A stretch of DNA of 64,000 nt from Halapricum salinum (GCF_004799665.1 NZ_CP031310.1:62001-126000); one strand, 5' to 3'. Counted from the stretch's first letter, positions 10,268-14,613 are shown. Notes: generated from the sequence alone by a model not told the origin. A program made the numbers and translations.

Positions 10268-10403
10268 AACGTTCGCCCGCCAACCCCCGATGCAATTGGG
10301 ATGGTCAATTGACCCCGGTAGTGGGTGATAGATACACGCACTGTATTCAGCACGGCTGCTGAAACCTATCTTCTATCAAGGGTTTCGACGAGACTCTGGA
10401 TAT

Positions 10404-10431
10404 CGGAACTATCGGAAATCACCCGGTTCCG
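10404..10431 (+). promoter_or_regulatory. Cassette repeat A: 18-bp motif within an inverted repeat before the Orc1/Cdc6-type gene
   Basis: TATCGGAAATCACCCGGT lies at 10410-10427, directly preceded by a related 9-mer TATCGGAAC (10401-10409). The segment is bounded by CGGAAC (10404-10409) and GTTCCG (10426-10431), a perfect inverted pair. It ends 4 bases before the ATG at 10435, where it would overlap the promoter and start of a leaderless transcript. The same 18-mer recurs at 11481. Confidence 0.65.
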
Positions 10432-10434
10432 TTT

Positions 10435-11475
10435 ATGGGGCTGGCGGCCGACGGTGCCAACGTGATCACGGACGCGCGAGTCCTCCAGACGGAATTCGTC
10501 CCCAGCGAGGTCGTCCACCGCCACGCGGAGGTCGACACGATCGCCGGGGCACTGGAGCCGCTGGTCGACGACGACCGGCCCGAAGACGCCCTGCTGTTCG
10601 GACCGACCGGCGTGGGCAAGACCTGCGTCGCTCGCTACACCGTCTCGCGTCTCCGCGAGCAACTGCTGGATCTCCGAACGTGCTACGTCAACTGCTGGTC
10701 CGACCGCACTCGCTTTCGCGTCCTCTATCGGCTGCTCGACGCCATCGACCGAACCGTCGATGTCCACCGGCGCTCGACGCCGAAAGACGAACTGCTCGAT
10801 CGGCTTCGCGAGGCCGACGACCACCCCTACGTCGCGGTGTTAGACGAGGCCGACCAGCTCGAAGATCCCTCGCTGCTGTACGACCTCTCGCGGCTGCCCC
10901 ACCTCACCCTGGTCGTCGTCGCCAACCGCGAGACGGACCTGTTCGCCTCGCTGAGCGAGCGGACGAGTTCGCGCCTGCAATCGAGCACCCGACTCAGCTT
11001 CGACCGCTACGGCACCGACGAACTCGTCGCCATCCTACAAGGCCGCGCCGAGCAGGGGCTCGAACCCGGTGCGATTTCCGATTCGCAACTGCGTCGGATC
11101 GCCGACGCCGCCGCCGGCGACGCCCGGATCGCGATCGGGACGCTCCGGTCTGCGGCCCGGACTGCAGAACGCGAAGACGCCGACGCCATCACCGACGCGA
11201 TGCTCACCGACGCCATCCCCGACGCCCGCGAGACGGTCCGCCAGCGGGCGATCGACCAGCTGACCGACCACCAGCGCGTCTGCTACCGGATCGTCGCCGA
11301 AGCCGGCGAGATCGAACCCGGCGACCTCTACGAGCGCTACCGTGAGCGCGTCGACGAACCTCGGACCCGCCGCACGGTGCGAGACTACCTGTCGAAACTC
11401 GACCACTACAACCTCGTCCGCGCGAGCGGGGAGAAACGCGGCCGGACCTACCACGCGGTCGGCAGATCCGAGTAA
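10435..11475 (+). CDS. Orc1/Cdc6-family AAA+ ATPase (short paralogue)
   Basis: A 346-residue AAA+ protein with Walker A GPTGVGKT (residues 56-63), Walker B VAVLDEAD (133-140), a sensor-1 region ending VVVANRE, an arginine-rich lid and a C-terminal winged helix (about 275-346). This order is that of archaeal Orc1/Cdc6 initiators, which load the replicative helicase, but it is shorter than most of them. It is followed by an inactivated-looking RecA-like protein, a small protein and a divergent B-family polymerase in the same direction. The flanking 18-bp repeats suggest it, or a partner, binds DNA at its own locus. Whether it is a replication initiator, a repair loader or a regulator is open. 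Confidence 0.8.
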   Translation: MGLAADGANVITDARVLQTEFVPSEVVHRHAEVDTIAGALEPLVDDDRPEDALLFGPTGVGKTCVARYTVSRLREQLLDLRTCYVNCWSDRTRFRVLYRLLDAIDRTVDVHRRSTPKDELLDRLREADDHPYVAVLDEADQLEDPSLLYDLSRLPHLTLVVVANRETDLFASLSERTSSRLQSSTRLSFDRYGTDELVAILQGRAEQGLEPGAISDSQLRRIADAAAGDARIAIGTLRSAARTAEREDADAITDAMLTDAIPDARETVRQRAIDQLTDHQRVCYRIVAEAGEIEPGDLYERYRERVDEPRTRRTVRDYLSKLDHYNLVRASGEKRGRTYHAVGRSE

Positions 11476-11498
11476 CGGAATATCGGAAATCACCCGGT
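11476..11498 (+). promoter_or_regulatory. Cassette repeat B before the RecA-like gene
   Basis: The identical 18-mer TATCGGAAATCACCCGGT is at 11481-11498, preceded by CGGAA (11476-11480) as in repeat A apart from one missing base. It begins directly after the stop of the Orc1/Cdc6-type gene and ends 34 bases upstream of the next ATG (11533), so it may carry a second promoter or operator inside the cassette. Confidence 0.65.
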
Positions 11499-11532
11499 CA
11501 GGCCTTTTGCCCCGTCGGGCCTCGCTCCGGCT

Positions 11533-12207
11533 ATGCCAGACGCGATCGACCCGGACCCCGATCCGGGCCTGACGCTGCTCGAAACGCCCGCTGCACAGTC
11601 GACGGCCGTCCACGAGTTTGCCCTCGCCACGCTCGAAACCGCCGGCGAGGCCTACTGGATCGACGCGGCCAATACCGCCACGACGCGCGTGCTGTTCGAC
11701 CTCGCCAGGGACGATCGGCACCTCCGGGGGCTCCGGATCGCCCGGGCGTTCACCGCCTACCAGCACCACCAGCTCGTCCGCCGCGTGGTCGAGCGAGTCG
11801 GGGCCCGCACCGCGCTGGTGGTCGTCCCGAACGTCGGAGCGCTCTACGGCGACGCCGATCTGGCCGACTGGGAGGCCGCCGACCTGCTGGAAGCGAGCCT
11901 CCGATATCTCTCGGAACTGGGCCACGCCGCCGACCTCCCCGTGATTGTGACGACCGCCGGCGACGGCGAACACGCCGATACCTGCCGGGAACACGCTGAC
12001 AGCGTCGTCACGTGTCGCGAGACGCGGTTCGGCCACGCCTTCGAGGGCGGGGGCGTCGAGACGACCGCCTACCGCTGCGGCCGGTTCTGGCAGACGACGA
12101 TCCCCTACTGGGTCGAGTTGTGTGGAACCGTCCCGGCCGTCGAATTTCCGATAGTCCCGGGTCTGGACCACGCGCCAGCCGTCGGCCAGCGGACCCTGGA
12201 GGTCTGA
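11533..12207 (+). CDS. RecA/RadA-superfamily-like protein lacking the P-loop
   Basis: A 224-residue protein whose core is laid out like a RadA/RecA ATPase: a strand with acidic end (AYWIDAANTAT), a region RIARAFTAYQHHQLVRRV reminiscent of the RadA segment following that strand, a Walker-B-like strand TALVVVPNVGALY, a helix and then LPVIVTTAG as in RecA folds. The N-terminal P-loop (GxxxxGKT) is missing and the Walker B acid is replaced by proline (residues 94-105). It therefore probably cannot bind or hydrolyse ATP and may be a structural or partner-binding subunit. It lies between the Orc1/Cdc6-type gene and the polymerase cassette genes, all rightward. The fold call is by pattern only. Confidence 0.55.
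   Translation: MPDAIDPDPDPGLTLLETPAAQSTAVHEFALATLETAGEAYWIDAANTATTRVLFDLARDDRHLRGLRIARAFTAYQHHQLVRRVVERVGARTALVVVPNVGALYGDADLADWEAADLLEASLRYLSELGHAADLPVIVTTAGDGEHADTCREHADSVVTCRETRFGHAFEGGGVETTAYRCGRFWQTTIPYWVELCGTVPAVEFPIVPGLDHAPAVGQRTLEV
12144..12155 (-). promoter_or_regulatory. Possible cassette repeat C (inverted partial copy)
   Basis: ATTTCCGATAGT on the plus strand is the exact complement of ACTATCGGAAAT from repeat A (10408-10419). It lies near the end of the RecA-like coding sequence, 54-65 bases upstream of the next ATG (12209). Because it is within codons it could be coincidental, but its position before the third cassette gene parallels repeats A and B. Confidence 0.35.
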
Positions 12208-12208
12208 G

Positions 12209-12490
12209 ATGGGCCGAACGAGCCCCACCTACCGGGACCTGCTCAGGGGGGTCGAATCGGATCTCGATCCCTTCCGGCGGGCGCTCCGGCGGGAGTCCCA
12301 GTGCGATTTCGACCGGCTGTTCGAGCGCGCCGACCGCCACGCCGACGCCGCGGCCTACCTGAACCCGACCGACCCCGAGCGCGCCGTGCTCTGGTCGATC
12401 CTGCTCTCCCAGGAGCGAGCGATCCGCCGCCTGCAGGCCGCCTACGAGGACGATCTCGACACGATCGAGGCCGGAGGGCAGCGATGCTGA
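12209..12490 (+). CDS. Small conserved haloarchaeal protein in the polymerase cassette (93 aa)
   Basis: A 93-residue soluble, helical protein opening MGRTSPTYRDLLRG, with a central FDRLFERADRHADAAAYLN and an ending rich in charged residues. I recognise this as a small domain-of-unknown-function family seen in haloarchaea but cannot name a function. It starts one base after the stop of the RecA-like gene, and its last seven bases overlap the polymerase ATG (12484), which strongly implies translational coupling and a direct functional link to the polymerase. Confidence 0.7.
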   Translation: MGRTSPTYRDLLRGVESDLDPFRRALRRESQCDFDRLFERADRHADAAAYLNPTDPERAVLWSILLSQERAIRRLQAAYEDDLDTIEAGGQRC

Positions 12491-14613
12491 CCGCCGAGTT
12501 CGACGGCCAGACGGTCCGGCACTGGCACGTCGATCCGGGCGGCGGCGTCCACGTCGAGCGCGAGCAGTTCCATCCGACTGTGTACGTCGCGAGCGACCGC
12601 GATCTGGGTTCGCTTGCCGACGCGCTCACTGGCGATCCGAAGGTCCGCGAGACGGCGTTCGAGCGCTGGCGGACGAATCTCCACGATCGCGAGCCACAGC
12701 GCGTTCTGGGGGTCACGCTCGACCGCGCCGCTGACGTGCGGCCGTTCGCCCGCGAGGTCAAACACACCCACGAACGCGGAGACCACCCGCCAGGGACCTA
12801 CCGACTGTACAACGTCGACCTCACTCCGGGCTTCCGATACTGTCTGGCGACCGGGAGGGAGCCGACACCCAGTCGAAGCCTCCGGACGACCCGCCTGTCG
12901 CTCCCCGAGCGATCGCTGGTCGACGAGACGCTGGAGGGGTTGCGGCTCGACGGCGAGCGTCTCGACGGGACCGACCAGCGAAAGCGCGAGTCCCTGCGCG
13001 AGCACCTCGCGTCTCACGATCCAGACGTGCTCGTGCTCTCTGCGGGTGAGCTCGTTCCGCACCTCGCCGGCGACGGGACCGCGAACGTCGGGGCCGCAGA
13101 CGACACCACTGGCGCGAACGGCGTCGACCTCGGCCGCGGGCCCGGCTACGAGTGTCTCGCGGGCGCGAACGTCTATCACAGCTACGGCCAGGCAGGCTAC
13201 TCGCCGGCCCGATACGACATCCCCGGGCGGGTGCTGATCGACCGCTCGAACAGCTTCCTGTGGGGCGAATCGAGCCTCGACGGCATGCTCGACCTCGTCG
13301 AGCTGTCCGGCCGGCCGCTGCAGGAACTGTCCTGGGCGTCGATCGGGACAGTCCTGACTGCCATCGAGATCCGCGAGGCCCTCGACCGGGGCGTGCTCGT
13401 CCCCTGGAACAAGTGGGAACCGGAGGCGTTCAAATCTCCGTCCCGACTGTACGATGCGGACAGGGGCGGCTTCATCTTCGCCCCCGAAGTTGGCCTCCAC
13501 GAGGACGTCCACGAACTGGACTTCGCCTCGCTGTACCCCTCGATCATCCGCGAGTACAACGTCAGCCCCGAAACAGTGGACTGCGACTGCCACGACCGGG
13601 CAGACGTCCCCGAGGTCGGCTACAGCGTCTGTGACCGGTCGGGCTTTCTCCCCGACGTTCTGGACCCGCTGCTGGATCGACGAGCCGAACTCAAACGGCA
13701 GATCGACGCGGCCGACGATCCCGAACGCGTGGCGGCGCTGGAATCACGATCGGGGGCACTCAAGTGGATCCTCGTCGCCTCGTTCGGCTATCAGGGGTAT
13801 CGCAACGCCAAGTTCGGCCGCATCGAGTGCCACGAGGCGATCAACGCCTACGCCCGCGAGATCGCCCTGCAGGCCAAGCAACGCCTGGAGGCCGGCGGCT
13901 GGCGCGTCCTCCACGGCATCGTCGACAGTCTGTGGGTGACGCCCGCCCGAAGCGATCCCGAACCACTGGAGCGAATCGTTGCAGACATTTCGGCCTCGGT
14001 AGGAATCGATCTCGAACGCGACGGCCGCTACGAGTGGGTGGCCTTCCCGCCGAAACGCGACGCGCCGGGCGGCGCGCTCACGCGCTACGTCGGCAAGCGC
14101 GCCGACGGCGAGTACAAGCTCAGAGGGATCGAGGCCCGCCAGCGCTCGACGCCGCCGTTCGTCGCCGAGCGCCAGCGCGAACTCGTCCAGCGGTTCGACG
14201 AAACCCGCGATCCGTCGGCAGTGTGTGACCACCTTCAGGGCACGCTCGCGACGCTCCGCCGCGGCGACGTCGATCCAGAAGAGCTGGTACTCACCACACG
14301 CCTCTCGAAGTCGCCGGCGGCCTACCAGCAGGCGACTCGAACCGAGGCGGCGCTGCGGCGGTGTCGCCAGCTCGACCGAACGCGCCACCCCGGCCAGTCG
14401 GTTCGGTACGTCGTGATCGACGATTCGGCCCGCCAGCCCGAGCGCGTGCGCCTGGCCGAGGAAGAACCCGACAGCTACGACACAGAGTTCTACGCCTCGC
14501 TGCTACTGCGGGCGGCCGCGAGCGTGCTCTCGGCGGTCGGGTGGGACCTCGATCGGATCGATCGCTATCTCCGAGAGACCGTCGACGCGTGCCTGGACGC
14601 CTTCGGTGGATAG
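12484..14613 (+). CDS. Divergent B-family DNA polymerase with disrupted catalytic motif C
   Basis: A 709-residue family B polymerase homologue. Motif A is well kept (LDFASLYPS, catalytic Asp346). Motif B is altered: Lys427 is present, but the usual N-S-x-Y-G is V-A-S-F-G (431-435). Motif C, normally YGDTDS, reads HGIVDS (477-482), so the first metal-binding Asp is Ile479. The N-terminal exonuclease region lacks a clear DIE motif. This fits the archaeal PolB2-like group, described in the literature as having disrupted catalytic motifs. The true start is the ATG at 12484, overlapping the preceding gene by 7 bases; the in-frame extension to 12301 is arginine-rich read-through of that gene. It ends the cassette; the next gene is convergent, 6 bases away. 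Confidence 0.85.
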   Translation: MLTAEFDGQTVRHWHVDPGGGVHVEREQFHPTVYVASDRDLGSLADALTGDPKVRETAFERWRTNLHDREPQRVLGVTLDRAADVRPFAREVKHTHERGDHPPGTYRLYNVDLTPGFRYCLATGREPTPSRSLRTTRLSLPERSLVDETLEGLRLDGERLDGTDQRKRESLREHLASHDPDVLVLSAGELVPHLAGDGTANVGAADDTTGANGVDLGRGPGYECLAGANVYHSYGQAGYSPARYDIPGRVLIDRSNSFLWGESSLDGMLDLVELSGRPLQELSWASIGTVLTAIEIREALDRGVLVPWNKWEPEAFKSPSRLYDADRGGFIFAPEVGLHEDVHELDFASLYPSIIREYNVSPETVDCDCHDRADVPEVGYSVCDRSGFLPDVLDPLLDRRAELKRQIDAADDPERVAALESRSGALKWILVASFGYQGYRNAKFGRIECHEAINAYAREIALQAKQRLEAGGWRVLHGIVDSLWVTPARSDPEPLERIVADISASVGIDLERDGRYEWVAFPPKRDAPGGALTRYVGKRADGEYKLRGIEARQRSTPPFVAERQRELVQRFDETRDPSAVCDHLQGTLATLRRGDVDPEELVLTTRLSKSPAAYQQATRTEAALRRCRQLDRTRHPGQSVRYVVIDDSARQPERVRLAEEEPDSYDTEFYASLLLRAAASVLSAVGWDLDRIDRYLRETVDACLDAFGG

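Follow-up and report, generated by a model that had tools for sequence, protein, structure and literature searches.

The stretch of DNA analysed here (the window), 64 kb of the 3.45-Mb genome of the haloarchaeon Halapricum salinum, contains four plus-strand open reading frames between positions 10435 and 14613, all read in one direction (Table 1). In an ORF scan of the window, 57 bp lie between the first, an Orc1/Cdc6-family gene (orc), and the second, a RecA-like gene (iRadA); 1 bp separates iRadA from a small gene (PPB2), which overlaps the polymerase gene (PolB2) by 7 nt. This layout agrees with an earlier note on the same DNA, which had described four co-directional genes, the last three 1 bp apart or overlapping.

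Table 1. Genes and promoter elements of the cassette, in window coordinates
Feature	Position	Strand	Basis
Type-1 promoter element TCGGAA-CTA-TCGGAA with TATA-like TTTAT, orc promoter	10403..10436	+	Same place in most homologous orc promoters of the clade, about -59 to -65 from the start
TATCGGAAATCACCCGGT, copy 1	10410..10427	+	Exact repeat
orc: AAA+ protein of the Orc1/Cdc6 family, carrying a winged helix and predicted to be an autoregulated transcription factor	10462..11475	+	TIGR02928 1.2e-59; Cdc6_lid; start comparison
Type-1 element CGGAATATCGGAAA..., just past the orc stop codon; predicted promoter of iRadA-PPB2-PolB2	11476..11507	+	Related elements before iRadA elsewhere
TATCGGAAATCACCCGGT, copy 2	11481..11498	+	Exact repeat
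iRadA: RadA/Rad51-fold protein, no P-loop	11533..12207	+	RadB HMM 2.8e-4; profile against Rad51/RadA 1.3e-10; AlphaFold pLDDT 87; Foldseek to RadA 4.6e-10
PPB2: arCOG07300-type small protein, conserved N-terminal arm MGRT...R9	12209..12490	+	Alignment of 28 homologues
PolB2: family B polymerase, first motif C Asp replaced by Ile	12484..14613	+	NF004418 1.5e-259; 57/57 pattern

By gene content and order, the three tightly spaced genes after orc are the haloarchaeal PolB2 operon, iRadA-PPB2-PolB2. A gene-neighbourhood search of haloarchaeal genomes, the check proposed in the earlier note, found this co-localisation to be kept, with iRadA at 55 of 57 PolB2 loci, PPB2 at about as many, and a co-directional orc upstream at 35. 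The 57 copies are not fully independent, L045 being identical to L087. The neighbourhood conserved across these loci bears out the idea of a dedicated DNA machine distinct from the replisome; element defence and a replisome mimic, two of the roles that had been suggested for it, gained no support. Nor are composition and function unexplained, as had been thought: the composition is already known, since two publications report the same operon with orc1/cdc6 neighbours, described in 2014 (Makarova, PMC4104785) and modelled as the PolB2 mutasome in 2025 (Timinskas, PMC11791011), and a probable function has been published with it.

The polymerase matches the PolB2-type model over its full length (residues 8-707), and a domain-level Pfam search finds in it the polymerase domain alone and no exonuclease domain. 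Its motif C reads His-Gly-Ile-Val-Asp where Tyr-x-Asp-Thr-Asp is expected, with the motif A Asp and the second motif C Asp retained; the criterion for PolB2, a change from YxDTD to HxxxD at motif C, was taken from PMC8764526. Across 57 of 57 haloarchaeal PolB2 there is no variation in the Ile-Val-Asp, the motif A Asp or those motif B residues that were tested, and the motif C His is kept in 55. The earlier note was thus correct that a catalytic Asp has gone, but because all relatives share the replacement "damaged" is the wrong word, and on the alignment the "missing" residue is typical of the family. Dpo2 of Sulfolobus islandicus has Ile-Ile-Asp in motif C; with Ile at the same position, Sulfolobus Dpo2 is reported to incorporate nucleotides as actively as the replicase, and it is an active, exonuclease-free mismatch extender with a translesion role; the authors of that study cite evidence that the second motif C Asp is the metal ligand (PMC8764526). 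By analogy, haloarchaeal PolB2 is not necessarily catalytically dead and may well be active. Many PolB2 C-terminal tails end in L-x-x-F/Y, which hints at PCNA binding, and an in-frame TGA is reported in some PolB2 matches.

The RecA-like protein (224 aa) has no GxxxxGK[ST] Walker A motif or P-loop and also lacks the N-terminal oligomerisation domain. Its RadA/Rad51 fold is supported by a family profile of 31 homologues, which matches both Rad51 and RadA at about 1e-10, and by the structural model (Table 1); no convincing canonical PCNA-binding motif was seen in the window's iRadA. PPB2 belongs to a class of about 90 aa and carries the MGRT arm, a motif named in PMC11791011, together with Arg3 and Arg9; M1, G2, R3, T7 and R9 are invariant among the aligned homologues.

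The orc product scores above the TIGR02928 cutoff and retains an intact Walker A (GPTGVGKT) and Walker B (LDEAD), with a weak match to the winged helix Cdc6_C (2.3e-4, under its cutoff), and it diverges from the better-scoring paralogues of its own genome (202 bits vs 340 and 478). Its start was moved to GTG 10462, the likely start codon from comparison of homologues, because ATG 10435 lies inside the TATA-like TTTATG and homologues begin M-I-x-D-A. An Orc1/Cdc6-type ATPase with features of a replication loader had been proposed; the family assignment stands, but a regulatory role suits the protein better than that of a loader. In three genomes (G005, G028 and G043, first ~200 bases of contig 1) the chromosome record opens at an orc of the regulator-like family, which may have been taken there for an origin marker.

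The most informative part of the earlier note was its remark that a repeat joins the first two genes. The 18-bp repeat TATCGGAAATCACCCGGT stands ahead of each in an exact copy, with 0.02 matches expected at up to three mismatches. These two are the only exact copies in the genome; the one further genomic match (L003) has three mismatches and apparently lies in a coding region. Both copies fall within a tandem promoter element, here termed type 1, whose pattern, TCGGAA-N3-TCGGAA followed by a TATA box, was derived from upstream regions set side by side. Exact ANTTTC is absent from the window element on both strands. The iRadA promoter of the window has a poor TATA-like stretch (CTTTTG) and, with its units 8 bp apart, escapes the strict expression for the element. 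When the strict element was sought across the window's own genome as the mark of a wider regulon, only the two cassette copies were promoter-like; the three extra matches overlap other ORFs, and such a regulon was rejected.

Of 284 haloarchaeal genomes searched, 49 contain the pattern TCGGAA-N2-W-TCGGAA-N14-18-TTWA, at about 57 distinct sites in all; the reversed control gave no match. Thirty of these sites were inspected, and 26 precede an orc of the window family, with PolB2 nearby or not; the remaining four lie before iRadA-PPB2-PolB2, a truncated orc, a TFB-like reading frame and, in one case, in an unexplained position. A looser variant, modelled on the promoters of iRadA, was met at 11 sites, nine of them ahead of orc or iRadA (control, 0). 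Upstream of iRadA, CGGAAA is found at 34 of 55 loci vs 6.6 expected, the tandem type-1 element at 22 of 55 (0.5% of control windows), mostly 14-15 nt from the TATA box, and an often tandem ACTTTCAC-type element at 11 of 55 (0.16% of control windows); the strict expressions miss 22 of the 55 promoters, the window's included, several of which hold near matches. Placement before orc is regular: in 42 of 65 cases the element begins between -59 and -61 relative to the start codon, and in 49 of 65 its two units lie 9 bp apart. At one locus (L145, G082:C17:54732) an intact type-1 element and the first orc codons are present, after which the gene seems to be truncated. We found no prior description of the type-1 element in the open-access literature, and it appears to be new.

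The elements before orc and iRadA are more alike within a locus than between loci (16.06 vs 14.84 of 24; 0 of 5000 permutations), an effect absent from an adjacent control window (13.62 vs 13.51). Element type also tracks the Orc phylogeny. With loci chosen by their element left out, there are 28 changes in 118 tips vs 61.8 when shuffled, and 6 vs 35.4 when the 84 tips bearing an element are taken alone. These figures concern classes defined after inspection of the sequences and are not proof of recognition by Orc, because genes are passed on together with their promoters. Of the classes, types 1 and 2 alone are solid, since B and D10 turn up in the upstream control window too. In a separate Orc clade (L244-L266, L309) a palindrome, TTTCCGGAAA, occupies the same promoter position.

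A further element may connect these promoters with the response to UV. TTTCACTTTCA is an 11-bp motif ahead of UV-B-induced genes of Halobacterium (Boubriak 2008, PMC2556686), and sites of this type are carried by other haloarchaeal PolB2 operons and some orcs. Searching for ACTTTCACTTTCA plus a TATA box gave matches in 107 of 194 genomes and few in the control, at sites preceding radA, topoVI-B, an RPA-like gene, an iRadA operon and others (genes named from translations); ACTTTCAC alone is too common to inform (61 matches vs 42 in the control). A single genome can hold both type-1 and UV-type elements, since that of the window has TTTCACTTTCAC before its own radA (L310 1440-1475; G000:C1:928294). 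The hexamer ACTTTC of the UV motif fits the Sulfolobus DDRE (PMC5817253, PMC9738581); Haloarcula-like Orc promoters carry ACTTTC, and some haloarchaeal Orc clades ACTTTC(AC). Among the other TTTCACTTTCA promoters, those at L177, L178, L183-L185, L191, L195 and L199 (near position 1500) are followed by a conserved leader resembling CAGTCACACGCTCC, with a threonine-dehydratase-like gene downstream, and L197 has a similar leader before an HtpX-like gene; the leader is possibly an unannotated small RNA or leader sequence. At L171, L173 and L175 the gene of a small zinc-finger-like protein, with a conserved ORF downstream, lies behind a TTTCACTTTCA promoter and may belong to the UV regulon.

We propose, at a probability of roughly 0.7, that the cassette is a PolB2 translesion mutasome operon together with its own autoregulated, damage-responsive transcription factor of the Orc1/Cdc6 type. 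In Sulfolobus, Orc1-2 binds ANTTTC both in the promoter of its own gene and in those of the damage response (PMC9738581), where the hexamer lies just upstream of the BRE at -44 to -39 (PMC5817253), and this precedent, with the likeness of orc and iRadA elements at the same locus, makes autoregulation by Orc the best reading. Orc, once activated, most likely by DNA damage, would bind the tandem element through its winged helix and help to bring TFB/TBP to its own promoter as well as that of the iRadA-PPB2-PolB2 operon; we infer both the binding and the damage induction. The position of the element upstream of BRE/TATA suggests activation over repression. PolB2, acting alongside the Rad51-like iRadA and the scaffold PPB2, would then extend primer ends that are mismatched or contain a lesion.

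The missing P-loop and first motif C Asp of the window genes could also betray a decaying or selfish leftover, an inactive polymerase with RecA relics under relaxed selection, and a decaying pseudogene was the outcome that the earlier note had named as fatal to its own view. We found purifying selection instead: dN/dS is 0.08-0.24 for PolB2 and below 0.45 for all four genes (nine pairs), which refutes decay unless the window copy alone is affected, the window ORFs are intact, PolB2-type matches are present in most genera sampled, and the motif A Asp, Ile-Val-Asp and other motif residues do not vary in the family, all of which makes a leftover extremely improbable. Quite unlikely, in our judgement, is a role for the element as a replication origin recognition site, with Orc as the initiator of an orc-adjacent origin. 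ORB-type sites also contain GGAAAC-like cores, and in several genomes the chromosome record has an orc of the window family close to its base 1. Haloarchaeal Orc genes, moreover, often adjoin their origin (PMC7776575). However, a search of 600 bp upstream found no inverted repeats of ORB type on either side of an AT-rich core, and the region was rejected as an origin; each promoter has a single tandem element at a fixed distance to TATA box and start codon, a copy also stands ahead of the iRadA operon, at times without an adjacent orc (L136), and one more-distant Orc group, possibly of chromosomal initiators, is without the element.

The element might, alternatively, be bound by another factor, such as a TFB paralogue or an unknown regulator, with Orc merely a co-regulated member of the mutasome acting, for example, at stalled forks. 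That TTTCACTTTCA elements, to which PMC2556686 assigns no regulator, also precede radA, topoVI-B and RPA-like genes agrees with this, as does the replication-related role that Makarova et al. proposed for the arORC2 neighbour (PMC4104785). We nevertheless consider it unlikely, as the type-1 element is almost exclusive to the window Orc family and the PolB2 operon, accompanies orc even where PolB2 sits elsewhere and is of a kind that tracks the Orc clade, and regulation by Orc1-2 of Sulfolobus has been studied by experiment (PMC9738581).

The cassette shares with the archaeal PolB2 operon or mutasome, S. islandicus Dpo2 included, the same three proteins in the same order, the orc1/cdc6 neighbour, the loss of the first motif C Asp (IID in S. 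islandicus, IVD in the window), the PPB2 MGRT arm and a RadA fold without P-loop. To this the window adds a defined promoter element shared by orc and operon, where the accessible portions of the publications give the neighbourhood only. Like Sulfolobus Orc1-2, the window protein would be a non-initiator Orc with AAA+ and winged-helix domains, linked to the PolB2 system and with a regulatory element placed immediately before BRE/TATA in the promoter of its own gene. Unlike the Sulfolobus DDRE, that element consists of two TCGGAA units in tandem at a 9-bp spacing and not of a single ANTTTC; as ANTTTC is lacking, we liken the window Orc to Orc1-2 in its probable mode of action and do not equate the two. 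Compared to the Halobacterium UV-B motif, the window element holds the same place before the TATA box but differs in sequence, TTTCACTTTCA being found before radA, topoVI-B, RPA-like genes and some PolB2 operons and single or tandem ACTTTCAC before some orcs. Bacterial Pol V and ImuA-ImuB-DnaE2 mutasomes under LexA likewise combine an inducible error-prone polymerase, a RecA-type partner and a dedicated regulator; in contrast to these, polymerase and regulator here are non-homologous and the promoter logic is archaeal. Bacterial PolB2 neighbourhoods are themselves enriched in lexA (PMC11791011).

The operon itself was known, and the gap addressed here is the control of the PolB2 operon in euryarchaea and the function of orphan haloarchaeal Orcs (PMC7776575), of which Haloferax volcanii alone has 12 Orc1/Cdc6 paralogues without known function (PMC7776575). 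An operator nearly exclusive to one orc family and the PolB2 operon makes the function of this Orc directly testable in tractable haloarchaea, and regulation by Orc would link the Orc1-2 response of Sulfolobus with the UV motif of Halobacterium. More tentatively, and at somewhat less than even odds, many orphan haloarchaeal Orc1/Cdc6 proteins could be autoregulated DNA-damage transcription factors with lineage-specific operators near -60 that control translesion synthesis. If so, these operators would derive from one TTTC/GAAA-cored site, and the Orc-based damage response of Sulfolobus would be an ancient archaeal counterpart of LexA/SOS.
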